Shown here piece by piece: positions 9,488 to 29,868 of a stretch of 64,000 nucleotides of DNA. The notes beneath the pieces were generated by a model. That model was not told the origin of the DNA. It was given only the letters and a program-made list of their open reading frames with translations, and made no database searches. The stretch is from Phormidesmis priestleyi ULC007 (GTDB lineage: Bacteria; Cyanobacteriota; Cyanobacteriia; Leptolyngbyales; Leptolyngbyaceae), in NCBI RefSeq assembly GCF_001895925.1, contig NZ_MPPI01000003.1, forward strand, positions 1-64,000, read 5' to 3'. A program made the translations under genes and the position numbers. Numbering within the stretch: the stretch's first letter is position 1; every line of letters starts with the position of its first letter.

Positions 9488-10132
9488 TTAGGAGTCAGCT
9501 TGATAGTTGGAACCTGATTTGTGATCCTGGTTTGATTGCGCGAGAATTAGATTAATTAAGCTTGTGACTAGGCGATCGTAGTCCATTGGCATTACGTCTT
9601 TGCCGTGCAGGATGTGCTGCACCAACATATAAGACACAAGAGAACCGAAAAAGATTTGCGCGATCGCTTCAGGGTCAGCAATGCCGAGTTCTGGATGGGT
9701 TTCAAAATATTGGCTGAGTAAGTGTCGCCCTTGCTTGATGACCGTGGTTGTGAATAATTTTGCTAATTCTGGGAAGCGATCGGACTCTGCAATAACCAGC
9801 CGGATCAAACACAAATAATTTTGATCTGCAACTTTAGAGCCGTAAATCTTGGCAACTTGCCTCAATAAGATCGCAGGCTCACCCCGCAACTGCCCCCCGT
9901 CATAGACTTCTTGGAATCGGGAGAGTGTCATCCACTCTAATAACGCTTTAAACAGCCCTTCTTTATTGGTGAAGTGGCTGTAGATCGTTTGCTTGGAAAC
10001 GCCCGCTTCTGTGGCAACACGATCCATGCTGGTGCCCGCATAGCCACAACTGAGAAACACGCGCATGGCTCCCTGCAAAATCTGTTCTTGCTTAGGGGTG
10101 ATGCTAAAAGGAACAACGTCTAATGAGGTCAT
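9488..10132 (-). CDS. TetR/AcrR-family repressor of the adjacent efflux operon
   Basis: A 214-aa transcription factor. The N-terminal TetR helix-turn-helix is plain: ILQGAMRVFLSCGYAGTSMD, then VATEAGVSKQTIYSHFTNKEGLF (read as two consecutive helices; residues ~15-65). The rest is an all-helical ligand domain. It is divergently transcribed from an HlyD-ABC efflux operon, with a 25-bp palindrome between them. The arrangement matches enterobacterial ybiH (cecR)-ybhGFSR, so it most likely represses both itself and the efflux genes until a ligand binds. The ligand cannot be told from sequence. Confidence 0.88.
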   Translation of the reverse strand: MTSLDVVPFSITPKQEQILQGAMRVFLSCGYAGTSMDRVATEAGVSKQTIYSHFTNKEGLFKALLEWMTLSRFQEVYDGGQLRGEPAILLRQVAKIYGSKVADQNYLCLIRLVIAESDRFPELAKLFTTTVIKQGRHLLSQYFETHPELGIADPEAIAQIFFGSLVSYMLVQHILHGKDVMPMDYDRLVTSLINLILAQSNQDHKSGSNYQADS

Positions 10133-19434: not shown

Positions 19435-21207
19435 ATGCTTGACGCGCTGCCTCCCGATCGCTTCCCCTCAATTCCCCTCCCCACTAACGAAGCCGAACGC
19501 CTGGAAGCACTGCGGCGATATCACGTTCTCGACACCCCTACTGAGATTGCGTTTGATCGGATCACAACACTCGCAGCACGACTGTTTGATATGCCGATCG
19601 TGCTGGTTTCGTTAGTCGATCACTCTCGTGCCTGGTTTAAGTCGAGCTATGGGTTTGATCTTTGCGAAGTGCCACGGGGCGACGCGATCTGCAATTTTGC
19701 GTTGCTCTATAACGACATTCTCGTCGTTCCTGACACTCGCAAAGACGATCGTTTTGCCTGCAACCCTTTTGCAATCAGTGAACCAGGCGTTCGCTTTTAT
19801 GCAGGTGCGCCCCTGATGACCCATGATGGCTATAACCTGGGCACCCTCTGTTTGCTAGACGGTAACCCGCGAGAAGCGTTAAGCGATGCCCAAAAAGCGA
19901 CGTTGATCGATCTCGCCGCGATGGTGGTTGATGAGCTAGAGCTACGGCTTGCCGCCAAAAAAATTGCTCAGGCCGATGCTGCTCTTCTGACGGTTACCCA
20001 AGGCGTTTCGGCGGTGACGGGCAACGCATTTTTTCAAGCGCTCGTGCTGCACTTTGCCAAAGTTTTAAACGTTGAATATGCCTTTATTGGGCTAGTGGTT
20101 GACCACGAAGACAAAGCCATTCAAACGATCGCAGTGTGCGCTCAGGGTGAAATTAGCGAAAATTTTGACTATTTGCTTAAAGACACGCCCTGTCAAGCCG
20201 TGATCGAAAAACGCACGATTTGCTGCTATCCGCATCGAGTACAAGCGCAATTTCCTGACGCACCCTTATTGGCTCCTCTCAATATCGAAAGTTATATTGC
20301 GATTCCCTTTTTTGACTCAACGGGTTCTGCGATCGGGTTACTGAGCATGATGGATGGCAAACCTTTAGAAAATGTGCAGCTTGCTGAGTCTCTGCTGACG
20401 ATTTTTGCCCTGCGAATTACAACCGAGCTAGAGCGCCAACAGACCGAAGAAACCCGCACCCAAATGCTTGCCCATGAGCAGCAAGCCCGTACCCAAGCCG
20501 AAGCCGCTAACCGCATGAAAGACGAATTTCTGGCCGTTCTTTCTCACGAATTGCGGACTCCACTTAACCCAATTTTAGGCTGGGCAAAACTGCTGCGATC
20601 GCGCACCCTTGACCCTGCCAGAACCGAGCAAGCGCTAGAAACGATCGAGCGCAATGCAATATTACAGACGCAACTCATTGACGACTTATTAGATATCTCG
20701 CGAATTGTGCAGGGCAAACTCAGCCTCACCATTGCCGCCGTTGATCTAAATGTGACGATTCAGTCAGCGATCGACACGCTGCAATTAGCGGCTCAAGCCA
20801 AGACGATCGCGGTTAAATTTGAGCCGCCTTCCCTGCCGATTTGGGTGTCAGGCGATGCGAACCGACTTCAGCAAGTGGTCTGGAATCTTTTGTCAAATGC
20901 CATCAAGTTTACACCTGCCGAGGGAAAAATCGTTGTTGACTTAAAGCAGGTCGCTGATAATCACGCTCAAGTTCAAGTCAGCGACACCGGAAAGGGGATT
21001 GTGCCTGACTTTTTGCCGTTTGTGTTTGAGTCTTTTCGGCAAGCAGATAGCGCTACGACTCGGCACTTTGGCGGGTTGGGGTTGGGGTTAGCGATCGTTC
21101 GGCAATTAGTCGAATCACACGGCGGCACCGTTGAAGCTGATAGCCTTGGAGAAGGACAAGGAGCTACTTTCACGCTTAAACTACCCCTGCTAAGAATCGT
21201 GGATTAA
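19435..21207 (+). CDS. Soluble GAF-GAF sensor histidine kinase
   Basis: 590-aa cytoplasmic kinase without membrane segments. The first GAF domain (~30-165) carries [13 protein letters not shown] and [21 protein letters not shown] second GAF (~190-320) has [17 protein letters not shown]. After a coiled coil comes HisKA with the phosphorylated His371 in [14 protein letters not shown], then HATPase_c with the N box ([14 protein letters not shown]), G1 (VSDTGKGI) and G2 ([12 protein letters not shown]). No receiver domain or response regulator gene is adjacent, so it is an orphan kinase. The last codons (RIVD, stop) lie inside the terminal repeat of the following MITE, so the C-terminus has been shaped by that insertion. 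Confidence 0.9.
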
Positions 21208-21427
21208 ATAACCTGTAAAAGTCTTATGATTTGTCATCGCCGAGACTTTTGCCCCCTAAATCCCCCACGAGTGGGGGACTTTGAAACTGGAGTCTTGGCT
21301 CAAAGTCCCCCAAAATGGGGGATTTAGGGGGCAAAAGCCGACCCAAACGAGTGCCAAAGACTTGTGTGTACACCGTAGCTCTTTAGGGTGAGGGCGAGAA
21401 GTTGCACCTTAATAAATCCACGTTCCT
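21195..21427. repeat. 233-bp MITE, family A long form, copy 1
   Basis: Near-identical to 28314-28546 in the opposite orientation. Ends are AGAATCGTGGATTAAAT on the left and, reverse-complemented, TTAGGAACGTGGATT on the right. The core folds through GCCCCCTAAATCCCCCA paired with TGGGGGATTTAGGGGGC. Both neighbours end in it: the kinase stop TAA (21205-21207) and the convergent MATE stop (21426-21428) each lie in a terminal repeat. It may act as a two-way terminator; it codes for nothing. Confidence 0.85.
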
Positions 21428-22778
21428 AAACGTTTCTAGTCAACCGAAAAAACCGAATGTTGTTCAAGCATGCAGACATCAAAAGTCCGGCGATGAATCC
21501 TGCCCATAGTCCTTGAGCGCCAAAGGGGCCAATAATGCCGAGACAATAGCCGATCGGCAACCCTACCACCCAATAAGAAATTAAATTAAACAGCATGGGC
21601 ATTCGCGTATCTTTTAAACCTCGCAGTGCGCCGATCGCCACGACTTGCAGCCCATCAAAAATCTGAAAAATTGCCGCCATCATCAGCAATTGGACTGCGA
21701 TCGCTTTCACCTGCGGATCGTTAGTGTAAAGTCCGGCGATCGTCATCGGCAAGCAAACCAGCACCAGAGACGCACTCGTCATAATCGCCACCGAAATCAC
21801 GAGGCTAGTCAAGCCGCTAAATCGTGCGTCTATAAAATTGCCCTGCCCGACTAACTGCCCAACTCGAACGGTAGTCGCGATCGATAACCCCAACGGCACC
21901 ATAAATGTCATAGCGGCAATGTTAAGCGCCACCTGATGCCCCGCTAAAATATTGGTTCCTAGCCCGCCGATCAGCAGTGTGGTCACGGCAAACATCCCCA
22001 CTTCTAGAATCAGGCTCAACCCGATCGGAATCCCCACTTTTAGCAGTTCTAAGAGTTTCCTCGCGCTGGGTCGGTCAAATCGCTCTAGCAGATTAAAGGG
22101 TTTAAGCTGCCGATTGATCACGACATAGACGCTCATACACGCGAGCATAATCCACCACGATACTGCCGTTGACCATCCGGCTCCTACGGCTCCAAGTTCT
22201 GGAAAGCCAAACCGACCGTAGATCAGCACCGAGTTGCCGACAATGTTGCACCCCAGCGCCACCAGTGTGAAATACATTCCGGGCTTCATGACGGCGATGC
22301 CTTCGTTAAACAGCCGCAGCGCCATAAACGCAAACGCTGCCGGAAGACCCCAGCTAATCGCTTTGATATAACCATCTGCGATCGCAACGACACCTGGCTC
22401 TATGCCCATCCAACTGAGCGCGGGAGAAAGATGCCGGACGATCAAGACAATCGGCAGCGCGATGAACTGGCTCAAATAAAGACCTTGGCGCACATAGGCA
22501 CCGATCTCGTGTCGTTCACCCGATCCATAAAACTGAGCCACGATCGGAGACAGCGCAATTAAAACGCCATTTGCAAACACTTGAAGCGGGAAAAACAACA
22601 TCGTTCCTGCGGCGATCGCGGCGAGATGTTGCGCGTTATAGTGCCCGACCATTACGGTGTCTACAAACGTCATCAGATTTTGCCCAACTTGAGCCGCCAT
22701 CACCGGAATGGCGAGACGGAGAATAATCTGGCTTTCCTTGAATAACAGAAGCGGATAATTTTGGGGTAAACGAGTCAT
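21426..22778 (-). CDS. MATE-family multidrug/sodium antiporter (NorM-like)
   Basis: 450-aa integral membrane protein with the twelve-helix MATE pattern. Family features seen: LRLAIPVMAAQVGQNLMTFVD in helix 1 (split as LRLAIPVMAAQ and VDTVMVGHY), AIAAGTMLFFPLQVF, LPAAFAFMALRLFNEG, GHQVALNIAAMTFMVPLGLS and the late DTRMPMLFNLISYWVVGLP. It would export cationic drugs or metabolites in exchange for Na+ or H+. It converges with the kinase gene, with a MITE between; the TAG stop is part of the MITE end. Start ATG 22776-22778. Confidence 0.93.
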   Translation of the reverse strand: MTRLPQNYPLLLFKESQIILRLAIPVMAAQVGQNLMTFVDTVMVGHYNAQHLAAIAAGTMLFFPLQVFANGVLIALSPIVAQFYGSGERHEIGAYVRQGLYLSQFIALPIVLIVRHLSPALSWMGIEPGVVAIADGYIKAISWGLPAAFAFMALRLFNEGIAVMKPGMYFTLVALGCNIVGNSVLIYGRFGFPELGAVGAGWSTAVSWWIMLACMSVYVVINRQLKPFNLLERFDRPSARKLLELLKVGIPIGLSLILEVGMFAVTTLLIGGLGTNILAGHQVALNIAAMTFMVPLGLSIATTVRVGQLVGQGNFIDARFSGLTSLVISVAIMTSASLVLVCLPMTIAGLYTNDPQVKAIAVQLLMMAAIFQIFDGLQVVAIGALRGLKDTRMPMLFNLISYWVVGLPIGYCLGIIGPFGAQGLWAGFIAGLLMSACLNNIRFFRLTRNV

Positions 22779-22904: not shown

Positions 22905-23324
22905 CTACTTTTGTTCAGGTGTCCAAAATTGTAGATCTTGAATTGTGCCAAAGTCTCGGTAGTTCATCGTCCAAACTGGGCAACGACGACGTTGAGCAGT
23001 GTGAATCACAACAGATGCATCCTCTAAACTCCCACTCCAACCTGGTAATGACTGAATCATTCGCTGTAGCGTTAGCACATCAGATTGAGCGAGAAAAACA
23101 GGTTGCAGAACATCCAGCATGAGCGTCAGTGCATCGCAAGCAATCTCATAGCGTTGATGATTCAGCAACCACTTATAGACCTCAAAGAGAATTGGAAGGG
23201 GCATCCAAAGAATCGTTTTCTGTTGAAAAAGCTGACGAAATCCAAGTTCTGCTTCTGCATGATAGCGATCGTTCTCATAGAACAGGGCAATTAACGCTCT
23301 TGCATCTAAAACAATTTGCTTCAA
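22905..23324 (-). CDS. PIN-domain toxin
   Basis: 139-aa predicted VapC-like RNase. The first acidic motif is LDARALIALF at residues 6-15, followed by PILFEVYKWLL (conserved Glu) and GSLEDASVVIHTAQ (acidic pair), and a late VWTMNYRDF. The start is a TTG overlapping the stop of the antitoxin gene (TTGA at 23321-23324), so the two are translationally coupled. It is read away from the Phd/RelE pair that lies in the other direction. Confidence 0.8.
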   Translation of the reverse strand: MKQIVLDARALIALFYENDRYHAEAELGFRQLFQQKTILWMPLPILFEVYKWLLNHQRYEIACDALTLMLDVLQPVFLAQSDVLTLQRMIQSLPGWSGSLEDASVVIHTAQRRRCPVWTMNYRDFGTIQDLQFWTPEQK

Positions 23325-23581
23325 TCGTAATCCTCTGCACGCTCATCAGAGTGGTGCGGGGCCTGTTTAACGATTCCTGATAATGCCATAAATTTCTCAA
23401 CCTGTTTGGGTTGTGGAGCCGCAACTTCACTCGCTACAGAATCCTTTTCTAATAGTTCTAACCCAAGTTTTGGTGCCAACGCTTCTTGAATCAAATCTGA
23501 TATCGTGAGGTCTGGATTTTTTTGTAAATAGCTCTGAATCAGCAGAACGAGATCATCTGAAATTTCTATTGTCTGTTTCAT
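23321..23581 (-). CDS. Antitoxin partner of the PIN toxin (RHH-like)
   Basis: 86-aa protein beginning MKQTIEISDDLVLLIQSYL, the strand-helix pattern of ribbon-helix-helix or VapB-type DNA-binding proteins, with LTISDLIQEALAPKL as the second helix. The acidic tail SDERAEDYD would contact the toxin. It precedes the toxin with a 4-base overlap. The 109 bases between this gene and the divergent Phd-like gene (23582-23690) must contain both promoters. Confidence 0.72.
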   Translation of the reverse strand: MKQTIEISDDLVLLIQSYLQKNPDLTISDLIQEALAPKLGLELLEKDSVASEVAAPQPKQVEKFMALSGIVKQAPHHSDERAEDYD

Positions 23582-23690
23582 CAGACACCATAGTTAGTAC
23601 TAAAGTTTTTTCGATTCTAGTTGTATTGTAGACGGTGATGCACAACCGTTTACAGACTAAAATTGATGGATTGCTAGAGAAACAAAGTGA

Positions 23691-23900
23691 ATGAACGCTC
23701 AAGCTAAAGACTATCCCTTTGCACAAGAATTCATTACCGATGCTGAGGGGCACATCCGCAAAGTCGTTATTGATGTTGCAGATTATCAGAAATTGATTGA
23801 AGCGCTTGAAGATGAAGGGCTTTACCGCGCAGTGGCTGAGGTTCGTAACGAAATTCCTTTGAGCTTAGAGGAAGCACTCAAGGAAATGGCAGCAGAGTGA
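23691..23900 (+). CDS. Phd/YefM-like antitoxin
   Basis: 69-aa small acidic protein. FITDAEGHIRKVVIDVADYQ is a single strand-turn-strand followed by the helix LIEALEDEGLYRAVAEV and an acidic tail ending EEALKEMAAE, the layout of cyanobacterial antitoxins of RelE-type toxins. Its TGA stop overlaps the GTG start of the next gene (GTGA at 23897-23900). Family name is tentative; the role follows mainly from context. Confidence 0.7.
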   Translation: MNAQAKDYPFAQEFITDAEGHIRKVVIDVADYQKLIEALEDEGLYRAVAEVRNEIPLSLEEALKEMAAE

Positions 23901-24166
23901 AGGTTGAATATTTACCCAGCTTTCTAAAGGATTTGAAAGCGCTCAAAAGCACACCCGGCTTTGAAGCTATTAATGCGCTCGTGTTTGAAGAGATTCCCCG
24001 ATCTACATCTCTGGGAGAAATCAGCAGTTTGAAAAGGCTCAAGGGGGTTGACGATGCGTACCGGATTCGCGTCGGTGATTATCGGATTGGCTTGTTCACG
24101 CTTAAGGAAACAATCACTTTTGCTCGTGTATTGCATCGAAGAGAGATTTACCGATACTTTCCCTAA
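23897..24166 (+). CDS. RelE/ParE-superfamily toxin
   Basis: 89-aa predicted mRNA interferase. The RelE pattern is present: VEYLPSFLKDLKAL in helix 1, SSLKRLKGVDDAYRIRVGDYRIGLF across the central sheet (LKGVDDAYRIRVGDYRIG), and a final FARVLHRREIYRYFP with the C-terminal Arg, His and Tyr typical of active members. GTG start coupled to the antitoxin stop by a four-base overlap. Confidence 0.85.
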   Translation: MKVEYLPSFLKDLKALKSTPGFEAINALVFEEIPRSTSLGEISSLKRLKGVDDAYRIRVGDYRIGLFTLKETITFARVLHRREIYRYFP

Positions 24167-24216
24167 TGGGTAGACTGCGATAGTCGTTCCCATGAAATAA
24201 GGTGAGGATCTCGACC

Positions 24217-24370
24217 TAATTCAATCCATTCGCAGTTGCTTAAGCGGCTGAATGCCCAACCACTCCAGATCTTGTTTAAGCTTTTTAAGCTGAGCGCGAT
24301 CGACCAGCAATAAATCGGGAGACAGCCGCGCCACGAAACGAGATCGTAGTATCTCACTGCGGGCGATCGC
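24217..24370 (-). pseudogene. Duplicate 3' fragment of the helicase-associated gene
   Basis: 154 bp that match 25201-25354 with about seven mismatches by eye. The matching region is the last ~50 codons and stop of the gene that ends at 25205. Here the fragment has no upstream coding region. It is therefore a detached copy, in direct orientation, on the far side of the mazEF module. Confidence 0.85.
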
Positions 24371-24455
24371 TCAGATCGATAGCAAAGCGCGATACGATTG
24401 TGCCCAATCGTTCATAAGGTAGGATCGACATACCATTTAGAGAAGCACAATCAGG

Positions 24456-24701
24456 ATGAACAAACTTATAACTTCTGAGCAAAAGCTGCTAGAGAAAATC
24501 CGGCAACTTCCCCCTGAGAAAGTGATTGAAGTTGAGAATTTCGTTGATTTTCTGGTTCAACGAAATCAAAACACTACGCAACGAATGAACTGGGATAAAA
24601 AAATAGCAGAAATGGCAAATGACCCAGAGATTCAAGCTGAAATTGCTGCCATTGATTTAGAGTTTGCGATCGCTGAAATGGATGGACTAAATTCTCAATG
24701 A
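24456..24701 (+). CDS. DUF2281-like/MazE-type antitoxin
   Basis: 81-aa protein starting MNKLITSEQKLLEKIRQLPPE and continuing VIEVENFVDFLVQRNQ, the pattern of DUF2281-type antitoxins. A second helical part contains the acidic AIDLEFAIAEMDGL. Its TGA overlaps the ATG of the mazF gene (ATGA 24698-24701). The toxin is disrupted, so this antitoxin is an orphan unless it serves another MazF in the genome. Confidence 0.75.
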   Translation: MNKLITSEQKLLEKIRQLPPEKVIEVENFVDFLVQRNQNTTQRMNWDKKIAEMANDPEIQAEIAAIDLEFAIAEMDGLNSQ

Positions 24702-25196
24702 GCATTCAGCGGGGACAAATCTACTTTGTCAATCTCAACCCGGTTCAGGGCAGGGAACAAGCTGGTAAGTAGACAGACCTAATTAAATGTAAGATGCCCA
24801 AATCGCCCTCACCCTAAATCCCTCTCCCTAGGGAGAGGGACTTTGAATCTTGCTCCCTTCTTCTTGGGGAGAAGGGTTGGGGATGAGGGTCTTCTATTTA
24901 ATTCCACTCAGCTACTTAAACGTCCTGTTCTAGTTTTGTCTATTGATGCGATTAATCAACTACCCCTCGTTGTTACTGGGGTCGTCGGAACTAAAGGCGA
25001 AAATATTTCTCGTGACTATCCAACCAATGTTCGCGTTTTCACAGCAGAAAGCGGATTGTCTCTAGAAACTGTTTTTCTCTGCTTTCAGCTTCGATCTCTA
25101 GATGCCGATCGGTTTCCTTCAAAACCATCTGGACAGATCTCTGCCGAGAAGATGGAGCAAGTTGAAGCAGCCGTTCGGTATTGTTTAGGCTTATAG
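24698..25196 (+). pseudogene. mazF: mazF/pemK-type toxin gene broken by a MITE
   Basis: The first 24 codons read MSIQRGQIYFVNLNPVQGRE then QAGK and hit a TAG created by inserted DNA. After 24918 the MazF reading resumes with RPVLVLSIDAINQLPLVVT, NISRDYPTNVRVF, LCFQLRSLDADRF and ends at a TAG at 25196. Removing 24768-24916 plus one copy of the TA duplication restores an uninterrupted MazF of about 116 aa (QAGK-RPVLVLS), the normal length. The insertion adds 151 bases, so it also shifts the frame. The reading frame from 24843 begins inside the element and would give only the C-terminal part. Confidence 0.92.
24768..24916. mobile_element. 149-bp MITE inserted in mazF, with TA duplication
   Basis: Terminal inverted repeats AGTAGACAGACCTAATTAAAT-like on the left (first 12: AGTAGACAGACC, then TAATTAAAT) and, reverse-complemented on the right, AGTAGCTGAGTGG then AATTAAAT. 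The element is flanked by TA (24766-24767 and 24917-24918). The core contains the palindrome CCCTCTCCCTAGGGAGAGGG. A TA duplication is the hallmark of IS630/Tc1-mariner transposases, so a parent of that class is inferred. Confidence 0.85.
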
Positions 25197-25204
25197 ACGC
25201 TAAT

Positions 25205-27415
25205 TTAATCCATTCGCAACTGCTCAAGCGGCTGAATGCCCAACCACTCCAGATCTTGTTTAAGCTTTTTAAGCTGAGAACGATCGACCAGCAATAAATC
25301 GGGAGACAGCCGCGCCACGAAACGAGATCGTAGTATCTCACTGCGGGCGATCGCGTCAAATACCTCCCAGTTGGTGCAACGCAAAACGACAATTTCTGCC
25401 ATCTCAAGCGTGGGTGGACGACCTGCCCAGGCAGTTAACGCCACTTTTAATAAGGGTGGCAATTCGTCAGTGCGTCTGGCTTCTAAAAAGTCAAGAATAT
25501 CACTGGCTTTGTTGCCTGCTTGCGCCGCTTTAACGACACTGGCTTGAGTCAGTGTCCAAGTGTTATCTGAATCTTTCTCCATCCATCGCTGTAGCTGCGT
25601 TTCTAATAGCAGATCCTTGACTGACTTTACTTGCGTTACTTCTCCGGTTTCACCGATTTTTAAGCAGCGACTTAACGGCTGGTCATAGCGGATTTTTTGT
25701 TTGATCAATGCCTCAATCGCTGGCGTGTTTTGATCGATTAGCAGAAAGCGATCGCCCAAGATTTTGCCACTCACTCCCTGATTCATTGCCGTTTGCATTG
25801 ATTGATGATCTGCAAACTCAATCATCTGCGTTTCGCGTCGCAATGTAATTTGTTCTCGCAATCCTCCCCATTGTTGAAGGTCGATTTCTACATTTTGCGG
25901 CACCGGAACCTTTGCCCCAGTTCGCAGTGCGTTGAGAAATTCTTCTAGCGATCCGCCGCGCTCTAACCCTCGATAAACTGACTCACGGGTGAGGCGATAA
26001 TGGGCAGTGTGCTGCTGAATGTCGAGACGATCGGCATAGCGATCGAGAAAGATCATTTGAGACGGGGCGACTTCATCAACATAGACCAAAAGCTCAAAGT
26101 TGGGTTGCACAATCCATGCAGGTTGCGGAGCCATCTCGACAAACGATGCAGCCAAATCGGGATGCAAAATCATTTGCCCTAACTCGGTGACTCTAAAACT
26201 GACGATCGCCTCATTTTGATTCGAGAATTCCGATCGTGAATTCCAGCCTAATTCGACGATTCCTAACAGATACAACCATGTTGATAATGCGTAGCGAAAC
26301 CAATGTTTTTCGCGTTGCTGCCATTCTTTGCGCTGCCGATCTCTCCAGCGTTTAGCGCTTTCTTCTGGGTCAACTCCCGCCGCACGAAATTGGGATGGAA
26401 TAAACCCGGTCAGTGAGAAGCGATCGCCGATGCGATCGAACAGAAATTTTTCTAAATCATCAAGGCTAAACCAGGCAGATTGATCAGACGGCAACAGCTT
26501 TAGCACCAGCAATAAAATCTGACGCGCCTCAATATAGCTGCTGGCATCAAAAAAACTGCTGGCTTTCCATTCAGTCCATTCAGCCGCGACGCTAAACCCT
26601 ACCAACAGTTGACTGATCTGAACCGGGTAAGGACGATTGGCAAAGGTTTCGATCGGCGCAGCTAACTCTAGCTGAGTGTCGTCCCTGTGGGTAGTCAAAA
26701 TTCCTGAATAGACACTCGCTGCTGTTAGGGCGATCGTCGGTTGCGGAAACCAAAACCCATCGATTTCTGTACCGTCTTCTTCCCAACGCTGCGCCTTAGT
26801 CAACTTGCGGAGGCTGTTGACTTGAGGAGTGCCCGATTTAGTTAGCTTCAGACCTCCCAACCCTGAGACTGCCTGCATAAAGCCCAAAATCGTCAACACC
26901 ACACTGGCAGGACGACGATAAGAAGAAATTTTAGGGGCGGCGGTTTCTTTGAGATCTAAGGTCGGAAAGTGAGGTTCGCTAACCTGTTCTAGAATTCGTT
27001 CATCAGAGAGCAGTTGTTCAAAATTTAGCCCATAGCCATAATAACCATCGATCGAATGAGTCGCGATAAATACACCGCTACGAATCAACTCGTGAGCATA
27101 AGCGATCGCTTCGTTGCCAAATTTATTGGTGAGATCGGGCTGCTCAACTCCCAACAGCGCTGCCGTGATCATCACCGTGCGAACCGAAACTTTGCCGCCT
27201 TGGGCTTTTGCCAGCTCTAATGCCAATCGTGCATAAGGCTTTAACTCGGCGATTAATTGCTGAATCTGCTTTGCGTCTTTTAGCCCACGAGCGATCGCCG
27301 CAATGCACTCACTTTTAGACGTTTGTTTGCCTCTAAACCCCCAAGACTTCGCCATGTCTTGGACGATCGGTTGCGCGAGTTGAGTCAGATAGGTGTCAAA
27401 TCGCAAAGGAACCAT
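25205..27415 (-). CDS. XPB/Ssl2-type helicase-associated protein (Helicase_C_3)
   Basis: Large cytoplasmic protein of 736 aa. Around residue 430 lies PAWIVQPNFELLVYVDEVAP, followed by YRLTRESVYRGLERG and VPVPQNVEIDLQQWGG, the signature of the Helicase_C_3 domain found in Mycobacterium Rv0862c-like proteins next to XPB helicases. No Walker motifs are present, so it has no helicase motor. The N-terminal half is winged-helix-like but unassigned. Start: an AGGAGG site (27421-27426) lies five bases before ATG 27413-27415; GTG and ATG codons just upstream are too close to it. It follows a 77-aa gene and a Uma2 gene in an overlapping operon. Its last 51 codons are duplicated at 24217-24370. Confidence 0.72.
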   Translation of the reverse strand: MVPLRFDTYLTQLAQPIVQDMAKSWGFRGKQTSKSECIAAIARGLKDAKQIQQLIAELKPYARLALELAKAQGGKVSVRTVMITAALLGVEQPDLTNKFGNEAIAYAHELIRSGVFIATHSIDGYYGYGLNFEQLLSDERILEQVSEPHFPTLDLKETAAPKISSYRRPASVVLTILGFMQAVSGLGGLKLTKSGTPQVNSLRKLTKAQRWEEDGTEIDGFWFPQPTIALTAASVYSGILTTHRDDTQLELAAPIETFANRPYPVQISQLLVGFSVAAEWTEWKASSFFDASSYIEARQILLLVLKLLPSDQSAWFSLDDLEKFLFDRIGDRFSLTGFIPSQFRAAGVDPEESAKRWRDRQRKEWQQREKHWFRYALSTWLYLLGIVELGWNSRSEFSNQNEAIVSFRVTELGQMILHPDLAASFVEMAPQPAWIVQPNFELLVYVDEVAPSQMIFLDRYADRLDIQQHTAHYRLTRESVYRGLERGGSLEEFLNALRTGAKVPVPQNVEIDLQQWGGLREQITLRRETQMIEFADHQSMQTAMNQGVSGKILGDRFLLIDQNTPAIEALIKQKIRYDQPLSRCLKIGETGEVTQVKSVKDLLLETQLQRWMEKDSDNTWTLTQASVVKAAQAGNKASDILDFLEARRTDELPPLLKVALTAWAGRPPTLEMAEIVVLRCTNWEVFDAIARSEILRSRFVARLSPDLLLVDRSQLKKLKQDLEWLGIQPLEQLRMD

Positions 27416-27424
27416 CATCACCTC

Positions 27425-27658
27425 CTACAGCACTTTGGGGAGTTGCCCCAACTTTTTAAGACGTTCTAATAATTCGTCGAGTTTGCCGGGTGCCACGATC
27501 GCCGTCAGGTCATTCAATCGTGTGAGAATAAACGGCGCAGTTCGCGGATTAGACATCAGAGTAGTGAGTAAAAGCGGCGTAGCAACCTCGATCAGCGACA
27601 CCCGATCGTGCAGGGTAGCGATCGCTTGATTTGAGGTGACCGCTTTGCGTTTTGTCAT
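27425..27658 (-). CDS. Conserved small protein between Uma2 and helicase-associated genes
   Basis: 77-aa protein, basic at the start (MTKRKAVTSNQ) and otherwise helical with hydrophobic LIEVATPLLLTTLMSNPRTA. Not recognised. Its ATG overlaps the stop of the Uma2 gene by four bases (ATGA), and its TAG lies within the ribosome-binding site of the helicase-associated gene. Such coupling suggests that the three products act together or are needed in fixed ratio. It could be a subunit or adaptor; no function is assigned. Confidence 0.65.
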   Translation of the reverse strand: MTKRKAVTSNQAIATLHDRVSLIEVATPLLLTTLMSNPRTAPFILTRLNDLTAIVAPGKLDELLERLKKLGQLPKVL

Positions 27659-28245
27659 CCTCCCGCCCTCAAGATTTGATCAGCCATCAGTTGTAAGTCA
27701 GGAAACATAACAGAGACAACTTGATTGTCCCCTCGAAACTTTCTCGACTGATAAGCCTCATCCTTGAGAGTCAACACTGCTAATACTGTTCTATCTGGGT
27801 CAATCTGCCAAAACTCAGGAATGCCTCGCGCTGCATACTCCTTCGGTTTTTCAACATAGTTACGATTGTAGTTATCGCTACCTGGTTTCCCTGGTGAGAC
27901 GACTTCGATCACCAGCGACGGGATAGGCATCTCAAAAGTGAGTAGAGCTTGCTTCTGACCACTGATAGCGATCGCAGATTCTTCTGAATGAACCATCAAG
28001 TCAGGCTCCCTAGCTGTGACTTCGCTGCTACTGACAGAAATTTGCTGCTTGATTCCCAATCGACTATAGGAAATGCCCAGTTGCAAAAAAGCTGCAATCA
28101 GAAAAACAGCAATCTGAGTATTCAACGTACTTTCAGCACCCTTCTCAACTAACTCCCCATTAACCAGTTCATAACGGGTGTCAGTGCCATCGTCATAGTC
28201 AAGATATTCCTCAATCGTTCTAAATCGGGGTTTGGCTTGCGTCAT
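27655..28245 (-). CDS. Uma2 (DUF820) family PD-(D/E)XK endonuclease-like protein
   Basis: 196 aa. Seen: the Uma2 opening FRTIEEYLDYDDGTDTRYEL with VNGELVE, then REPDLMVH, the core strand SLVIEVVSPGK, and YVEKPKEYAARGIPEFWQID, which carry the acidic and Lys residues of the PD-(D/E)XK fold. Uma2 genes are greatly expanded in cyanobacteria and their targets are unknown; many are solitary. This one heads an operon with a 77-aa protein and a helicase-associated protein, which is less usual. Start ATG 28243-28245. Confidence 0.88.
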   Translation of the reverse strand: MTQAKPRFRTIEEYLDYDDGTDTRYELVNGELVEKGAESTLNTQIAVFLIAAFLQLGISYSRLGIKQQISVSSSEVTAREPDLMVHSEESAIAISGQKQALLTFEMPIPSLVIEVVSPGKPGSDNYNRNYVEKPKEYAARGIPEFWQIDPDRTVLAVLTLKDEAYQSRKFRGDNQVVSVMFPDLQLMADQILRAGG

Positions 28246-28313
28246 TGGCGTTAGCTTCGCTCCACATAGTGTTCGCCCTCCAGTTTGCCTTACGCTGCTT
28301 TGTCGATCAACTT

Positions 28314-28546
28314 AGGAACGTGGATTTATTAAGGTGTAACTTCTCGCCCTCCCCCTCAGGAGCTACGGTGTACACCAATCTTTGTCGCTGCGTTTGGGTC
28401 GGCTTTTGCCCCCTAAATCCCTCATTCTGGGGGACTTTGAGCTAATACTCTGGTTTCAAAGTCCCTCACTCGTGGGGGATTTAGGGGGCAAAAGTCTCGG
28501 CGACGACAAATCAGAGGACTTTTACAGGTTTTTAATCCACGATCCT
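28314..28546. repeat. 233-bp MITE, family A long form, copy 2 (inverted)
   Basis: Reverse-orientation copy of 21195-21427 with the same length and only scattered mismatches. Ends TTAGGAACGTGGATT and, reverse-complemented, TTAGGATCGTGGATT. Core again pairs GCCCCCTAAATCCC with GGGATTTAGGGGGC. It lies between the start of the Uma2 gene and the end of the flavoprotein gene. The rest of 28246-28605 holds no recognisable gene; open frames here run through the element. Confidence 0.85.
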
Positions 28547-28605
28547 AAGTTACTAATCGGGTCAAGTCTTGAAGTTAAATCTCAGGATATCGCACTCACG
28601 CTAAA

Positions 28606-29868
28606 TCACGATCGCTGTTCTGTCAGTTCTACGAGAGAATCTCTTGCGATCGCTTGCCCGGCAATATAGCCCGTCGTCCAAGCGCTTTGGAAGTTAAACC
28701 CGCCCGTAACGCCATCAATGTCTAACACTTCGCCCGCTAAATAAAGCCCCGGACAGCAGCGACTCTCCATCGTTTTGAAATTGACTTCTTTAAGATTCAC
28801 GCCGCCACAGGTGACAAATTCTTCTTTAAATACTCCTTTTCCATTAACAGTGTATTTCCCTTGAGTCAGTTCTTGAATCAGCAGATTGAGCGTTTTATTT
28901 GAGAGTTCTGCCCAGCGAGCTTCTTTATGAATGCCGACAGCAGCCGTGAGTTTTTCCCACAAACGACGAGGTAACAGCACTGGGCAACTCGACCCGATCG
29001 CTCGTCTCGGCAACTGCGATTTGACTGCCAACAATTCTTGCCGCAGCGCTTCTGGATTTTGCTTGGGCAACCAGTTAATCACCAGCGTGGCTTGATAACG
29101 ATGCTCATGCAGAACTCTAGCACCCCACGCAGACAACTTCAGCACCGCCGGGCCGCTCAAGCCCCAGTGCGTCACTAACAGCGCTCCAGTTTGCTCTAGT
29201 TTGGTGTCGCCTACCTGCAACCGCAACCGCACCGGATCGACGGCAATTCCTGACAAATCTTCTAGGCGATCGTCCGTCAAGTTAAACGTAAACAGAGAAG
29301 GGGCAGTCGGCTCGATCGTATGTCCCAACTCTTTCGCAATCTGATAGCCTTGGGGATTGCTGCCCGTCGCAATTAATAATCGATCGGCGTTGAGAACTTC
29401 GCCTGATCGCAATTCAATCTCAAAAGCGCCATCTTTTTTGATAACTGATTTAACGCTGGCTCCTAGACAAACATTAATTCCAGCGTCTTGAGCTTGTTGA
29501 ATTAGACAGTGAGCGATCGTGGCAGAATTGTCTGTAATCGGAAACATTCGCCCGTCTGCTTCGGTTTTGAGCTTGACGTTTCGCGCTGTAAACCACTCGA
29601 CCGTATCTTTAGCTTGAAATTGACTAAAGGCACCCCGCAGCGCTTTGCTACCTCTGGGATAGTTCTGCACCAGGATTGCCGGATCAAAACAGGCATGGGT
29701 GACATTGCAGCGTCCGCCACCCGACACGAGCACTTTGGTGAGCGGTTGCCGACTCGCTTCGAGCAGCGTCACATCAGCGCTACAGTTGGTTTGGGCACAG
29801 GTGATCGCACCAAAGAAGCCAGCCGCTCCTCCTCCAATCACGACCACTTTCAACGGTTGAGATAACAA
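28606..29868 (-). CDS. HI0933-like NAD(P)/FAD-dependent oxidoreductase
   Basis: 420-aa flavoprotein of the HI0933/YhiN/BaiN group. Seen: the FAD-binding VVVIGGGAAGFFGAI at residue 8, VLVSGGGRCNVTH at ~45, the second dinucleotide strand LLIATGSNPQG, and the late LYLAGEVLDIDGVTGGFNFQ with AWTTGYIAG. Relatives include bile-acid C=C reductases in gut bacteria, but the reaction in cyanobacteria is unknown. Normal length. Start ATG 29866-29868. Confidence 0.9.
   Translation of the reverse strand: MLSQPLKVVVIGGGAAGFFGAITCAQTNCSADVTLLEASRQPLTKVLVSGGGRCNVTHACFDPAILVQNYPRGSKALRGAFSQFQAKDTVEWFTARNVKLKTEADGRMFPITDNSATIAHCLIQQAQDAGINVCLGASVKSVIKKDGAFEIELRSGEVLNADRLLIATGSNPQGYQIAKELGHTIEPTAPSLFTFNLTDDRLEDLSGIAVDPVRLRLQVGDTKLEQTGALLVTHWGLSGPAVLKLSAWGARVLHEHRYQATLVINWLPKQNPEALRQELLAVKSQLPRRAIGSSCPVLLPRRLWEKLTAAVGIHKEARWAELSNKTLNLLIQELTQGKYTVNGKGVFKEEFVTCGGVNLKEVNFKTMESRCCPGLYLAGEVLDIDGVTGGFNFQSAWTTGYIAGQAIARDSLVELTEQRS

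Follow-up and report, generated by a model that had tools for sequence, protein, structure and literature searches.

A two-gene unit in Phormidesmis priestleyi and on Deinococcus plasmids that may encode an XPB-regulatory pair resembling TFIIH p8 and p52

Three tightly spaced genes on the minus strand of Phormidesmis priestleyi ULC007 raise the question of which of them belong together and what their products do. The window, that is, the whole 64,000-nucleotide stretch of contig NZ_MPPI01000003.1 that was analyzed, comes from a Phormidesmis genome of 5.68 Mb in 118 contigs. The first gene (27655-28245) encodes a Uma2 protein of 196 aa (Pfam Uma2, E 1.3e-24) and overlaps by ATGA the second, a 77-aa ORF (27425-27658) whose product is a putative p8/Tfb5-like small subunit. 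The third, a 738-aa ORF with a GTG start (25205-27421), begins 3 bp downstream of the second and encodes a motor-less protein, a putative p52/Tfb2-like partner of the XPB helicase, referred to below as the large protein. A preliminary description had presented these genes as a candidate three-gene operon that looked like a unit for nuclease-based DNA processing or defence. Here we confirm the three ORFs and the tight junctions between them, as well as its identifications of the first gene as Uma2 and of the third as encoding a Helicase_C_3 protein without a motor. The function and the extent of the unit are read differently: with modest confidence, we consider that the second and third genes are a conserved two-gene unit for an XPB-regulatory pair, built like the p8-p52 pair of TFIIH.

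Helicase_C_3 (PF13625; 76.9 bits against a cut-off of 34.2) is the sole Pfam family found in the 738-aa protein, where it occupies two stretches (residues 437-553 and about 620-703); the helicase core is absent according to Pfam. For the 77-aa protein, Pfam yields nothing credible. Between the window and P. priestleyi BC1401, a sister strain of the same genus, dN/dS equals 0.076 for the 77-aa gene and 0.109 for the 738-aa gene, with 0.110 for the neighbouring MATE gene. Both genes of the pair are under purifying selection.

The composition of the unit can be followed across five loci. In BC1401, the 77-aa gene is followed by the large gene and then by the MATE gene, while Uma2 and the toxin-antitoxin genes of the window are absent; the 77-aa and 738-aa proteins are 91% and 84% identical, respectively, to those of the window. 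A GTDB-wide scan for close relatives of the 738-aa protein returned, apart from the window genome, this strain alone. A tblastn search of plasmids added three Deinococcus sequences related to the large protein (30-32% identity across about 300 aa). All three plasmid loci have the same order, XPB helicase, a hypothetical protein of 99-115 aa, and the large protein (805-815 aa), and in each of them the small and large genes overlap by ATGA. The 77-aa protein and a Deinococcus small protein share 36% identity over 61 gapless residues (pairwise BLASTP, E 3e-10), and their hhalign match (E 3.6e-8) scores above all shuffles (0/150); by these comparisons the two are homologous. The pair of small and large genes is present in five of five loci (the window, BC1401, and the three Deinococcus plasmids), which answers the question, posed in the preliminary description, of whether the 77-aa protein is a constant companion of the large one.

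The Deinococcus plasmid operon is similar to the Phormidesmis locus in its homologous small and large proteins, their order, and an ATGA overlap. It differs in containing XPB, in the longer N-terminus of the small protein, and in an extra C-terminal region of the large protein. This C-terminal extension, absent from Phormidesmis, looks WYL-like by eye in all three proteins (L029, 6729-9164; L030, 6708-9155; L031, 6774-9191), and Pfam names nothing in it. At the N-terminus of the L030 and L031 small proteins there is a basic tail that matches the AT-hook weakly (E about 0.1); the 77-aa protein lacks this tail. In cyanobacteria the pair is rare: among 292 genomes sampled across the phylum, a full-length relative of the large protein occurs in the window genome only, and the same sample contains no convincing second 77-aa gene. 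A search for relatives in viral contigs and phages found none.

Motor-less Helicase_C_3 proteins also exist in a canonical form, annotated as 'helicase-associated domain-containing protein'; presumably, Rv0862c of M. tuberculosis is such a protein located beside XPB. In several cyanobacteria, the gene directly before XPB encodes a partner of this canonical form (625-660 aa), and canonical partners without any small protein are found both in cyanobacteria and in Paenibacillus (657 aa). A 99-aa gene beside the partner in Actinomyces oris was considered as a relative of the small protein and rejected, as its product looks like a membrane protein. The canonical partners and the 738-aa type are alike in having Helicase_C_3 near the C-terminus, in lacking a motor, and in their link to XPB, whereas the 738-aa type is longer, has two Helicase_C_3 stretches, and is accompanied by a separate small subunit that is absent from the canonical loci. 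One could view the 738-aa type as a relocated canonical partner; this is weakened by BC1401, which carries a canonical 642-aa partner (L027, 2961-4886) in addition to the 738-aa type. The window genome has the 738-aa type only, with no canonical partner at E 0.1.

In TFIIH, p52 and p8 bind the N-terminal domain (NTD) and the motor of XPB and control its ATPase (PMC7708078, PMC6422496). The fold of the XPB NTD recurs in the p52 clutch, and these two domains pair with each other; p8, in turn, is a binding partner of the p52 C-terminal domain and shares its fold (PMC6422496; PMC7708078). Before any test, the order of domains had led us to predict a p52-like 738-aa protein and a p8-like 77-aa protein. 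In the large protein, residues 437-547 (25781-26113, minus strand) align with residues 308-423 of human p52. Together with their Deinococcus relatives, they match p52 over 108 columns (hhalign probability 94, E 1.4e-7) with Z of 15, a score reached by 0 of 150 shuffles. A motif, (R/Q)(L/I/V)TRES, is common to the clutch region of the large proteins and p52, and its threonine falls at the position of XPB T119 in the alignment (PMC6422496). On these grounds, residues 437-547 can be assigned to a putative clutch/MD2-type domain with the XPB-NTD fold.

The 738-aa protein is similar to p52/Tfb2 (GTF2H4) in being motor-less and in carrying, in its C-terminal half, a domain of predicted XPB-NTD fold with the profile match and the motif described above. 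Unlike p52/Tfb2, it has no Pfam Tfb2_C, possesses an extra C-terminal DRD-like domain, and holds Q439 in the alignment column of ct p52 E359, a glutamate essential for XPB activation (PMC7708078). Its N-terminal 430 residues lie outside the match to p52, and the hhalign match runs only partly into the p8-binding C-terminal domain region (Tfb2_C); Tfb2_C (PF18307) itself has no match to the pair at E 10 in any of five sources. The extra domain, a predicted beta-alpha-beta-alpha domain formed by residues 675-731 (25229-25399, minus strand), resembles, when combined with its Deinococcus copies, both the XPB DRD (E 3.3e-7, Z 14.6) and the small proteins (E 3.7e-5, Z 9.7). Searched against PDB, the profile of this domain has no TFIIH match, and neither has the profile of the whole canonical partners. 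A tree of clutch domains does not separate p52 from the bacterial groups. The AlphaFold model of the 738-aa protein, built from a two-sequence alignment, has a pLDDT of 34.

For the small protein, a profile of five small proteins searched against all PDB sequences placed Tfb5 in the top five positions with E 0.22, all five matches being versions of one yeast protein. Tfb5 was also first with the core-trimmed profile (E 0.14) and with a profile to which the C-terminal domains of four canonical partners had been added (E 0.003, 50 columns). Compared with a p8 profile made of the human, yeast, and Chaetomium sequences, this broadened family gave E 8e-5 and Z 10 (0/150 column shuffles). The narrow profile of small proteins matched p8 weakly (E 0.017, Z 3.5, 1/150 shuffles); human and Chaetomium p8 scored at noise against it, and yeast Tfb5 is the only one that matches the family as a single sequence. 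In none of the five sources does the Pfam Tfb5 profile (PF06331) match the pair. A two-sequence alignment gave an AlphaFold model of the 77-aa protein that is all-helical (pLDDT 71), as opposed to the expected beta-alpha-beta-alpha structure; neither this model nor that of the 738-aa protein is usable. Judged by its profile matches, the 77-aa protein appears to resemble Tfb5 in sequence and to be, like it, a stand-alone product of about 70 aa, the sequence similarity being weaker with the narrow profile.

Like p8/Tfb5/TTDA (GTF2H5), the 77-aa protein is free-standing and about 70 aa long, and the profile match is collinear over about 50 columns; its being encoded together with a large partner is counted as a further likeness. 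It differs from p8/Tfb5 in the absence of the Pfam Tfb5 family and in being somewhat closer to the XPB DRD. Because Pfam Tfb5 and Tfb2_C are both silent, the glutamate column holds Q439, the clutch tree does not resolve p52, and the C-terminal domain profile of the 738-aa type finds no TFIIH protein, we do not file the pair as members of the Tfb2 and Tfb5 families. Our claim, based on sequence profiles, is one of remote homology to p52 and p8 and of a similar way of working.

The same comparisons bear on another scenario, which we regard as rather unlikely, namely that the two genes encode an ordinary divergent version of the bacterial XPB partner. The small protein would then be a split-off XPB-DRD-like domain without any special relation to p8, and the similarity to p52 would reflect the shared XPB-NTD fold. 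Such an origin would agree with the scores of the broadened small family, which is closer to the XPB DRD (E 2e-7, Z 14.3) than to p8 (Z 10), with the near-equal hhalign matches of residues 437-547 to the XPB NTD (E 1.1e-7) and to p52 (E 1.4e-7), and with the canonical partners of cyanobacteria and Paenibacillus that do without a small protein. It agrees less well with the PDB searches, in which Tfb5, and not the XPB DRD, came first with all three profiles, or with the Z-scores against p52, to which the large protein is nearer (15) than the XPB NTD (11) or the canonical partners (6.4) are. Moreover, the small subunit is a separate protein whose gene accompanies that of the large one, which mirrors the arrangement of p8 and p52.

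The link to XPB itself is provided by gene order. The 738-aa protein had been placed in a motor-less family that accompanies XPB, and the position of its Deinococcus homologues beside XPB bears this out. In the window genome, XPB is not adjacent to the 738-aa gene. Each of the two Phormidesmis genomes (the window genome and BC1401) has one XPB located away from the pair; in the window genome it lies on another contig as a 598-aa frame with a Helicase_C_3 N-terminal domain of its own and the helicase core. The Deinococcus operon of XPB, small, and large genes supplies the link that is absent by position in Phormidesmis. The separation in both Phormidesmis genomes, together with the WYL-like appearance of the Deinococcus C-terminal region (by eye and unconfirmed by Pfam), could point to a pair that works independently of XPB, for instance as a DNA-binding or transcription-regulating complex; we consider this improbable, given the conserved XPB-small-large order in three of three Deinococcus loci and a domain content that is the same as that of the N-terminal half of XPB.

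The position of Uma2 next to the pair has a different history. Just ahead of the 77-aa ATG of BC1401 (at 9761), the region 9701-9753 matches positions 28564-28613 of the window (BLASTN, 81% identity, E 2e-4). This remnant of the leader preceding the 77-aa gene in BC1401 lies, on the minus strand, upstream of Uma2 in the window. Between the leader and Uma2 there is a multicopy repeat of about 240 bp with inverted ends (28311-28549, no strand), which is MITE-like and has 16 further copies in the genome at 89% identity or more, as well as many weaker ones; its end repeats are CTTAGGATCGTGGATT and AATCCACGTTCCTAAG. A second copy in the window occupies 21190-21429, and tens of copies are seen genome-wide. 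A leader found upstream of Uma2, with a multicopy repeat in between, indicates an insertion. The simplest history is that, in the lineage of the window, a segment of about 905 bp (27659-28563, minus strand), bearing Uma2 and the 240-bp repeat, was probably inserted between the 77-aa gene and its leader. Loss in BC1401 is a possible alternative for this comparison of two genomes and needs an exact excision.

Uma2 stands beside the pair in one of the five loci and in none of the three on Deinococcus plasmids. As the window genome has 79 Uma2 matches, an Uma2 neighbour says little. The view that the three genes are locked together as an operon does not survive the BC1401 pair without Uma2, the Deinococcus loci, and this abundance. 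The preliminary description had named as adverse to it a large gene found widely without the other two and Uma2 scattered at random: Uma2 is indeed not a conserved neighbour, but wherever the 738-aa gene was seen, the 77-aa gene accompanied it.

The toxin-antitoxin surroundings reported earlier are real: DUF2281/PemK and RelB-like/ParE pairs separate the 738-aa gene from the MATE gene. The region 22905-25196 appears to hold three stacked two-gene modules of the toxin-antitoxin type, the third pair being without a Pfam match and PIN-like by eye. In BC1401, the large gene and the MATE gene are separated by 207 bp, with none of the three modules. A 155-bp direct repeat (96%; 24216-24370 and 25200-25354, 984 bp apart) places a second copy of the 738-aa gene's 3' end beyond the DUF2281/PemK module, as if the module had inserted at the end of the gene and, through a duplication, kept it intact. 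Joint action of the Uma2, 77-aa, and 738-aa proteins as a nuclease-based DNA-processing or defence unit is very improbable and, with Uma2 not part of the unit, has no support: the tight overlaps in the window genome, the toxin-antitoxin modules nearby, and the PADLOC label of the Uma2 protein as candidate PDC-S03 are outweighed by the single Uma2-bearing locus of five, the insertion signature with its multicopy repeat, the 79 Uma2 matches, and the lack of any PADLOC label for the 77-aa and 738-aa proteins.

For the favoured XPB-regulatory pair, the following mechanism can be proposed. The large subunit would use its own version of the XPB NTD to dock on that of the helicase, in the manner of the p52 clutch. 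The beta-alpha-beta-alpha domain that occurs in XPB and C-terminally in the large protein would exist in the 77-aa protein as a free-standing copy; the 77-aa protein would pair with the large one, touch the XPB motor, and complete a collar around it, as p8 does. In this way the pair may both turn on and limit the XPB ATPase and, with it, the opening of DNA during repair or transcription. In Phormidesmis, whose genome has a single XPB, the pair would work on this XPB in trans, with Uma2 as a later insertion. XPB binding, the stoichiometry, ATPase control, and a role in repair are what we infer from the domain content and the Deinococcus operon. Two further observations speak against this explanation: the Phormidesmis pair is away from XPB, and BC1401 also keeps a canonical partner. 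A stronger statement, that bacteria own a real XPB-p52-p8 core module, forming a single operon in Deinococcus and dispersed over the genome in Phormidesmis, is tentative, and we put it at somewhat below an even chance.

Outside eukaryotes, a two-protein XPB complex is exemplified by archaeal XPB-Bax1, in which Bax1 is a nuclease that binds the ThM and HD2 of XPB (PMC13024598). Unlike Bax1, the Phormidesmis and Deinococcus pair contains no nuclease domain that we could find. As of 2012, bacteria were stated to have no identified homologues of the other TFIIH subunits (PMC3353954), and the function of bacterial XPB was called elusive in 2026 (PMC13024598). Our literature search, with subscription papers and preprints outside its scope, found no report of bacterial p52 or p8 homologues.

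In summary, the proposal puts a name to a small protein that had carried no annotation and to a family so far labelled 'helicase-associated'. With a p52/p8-like pair in the XPB operon of radiation-resistant Deinococcus, bacterial XPB would have a regulator, and its role would become testable in small soluble proteins. Such a pair would also bear on the origin of the TFIIH core: if bacteria do own an XPB-p52-p8 core module, the regulatory heart of TFIIH would not be a eukaryotic invention, and bacteria would offer an easy model of XPB regulation.
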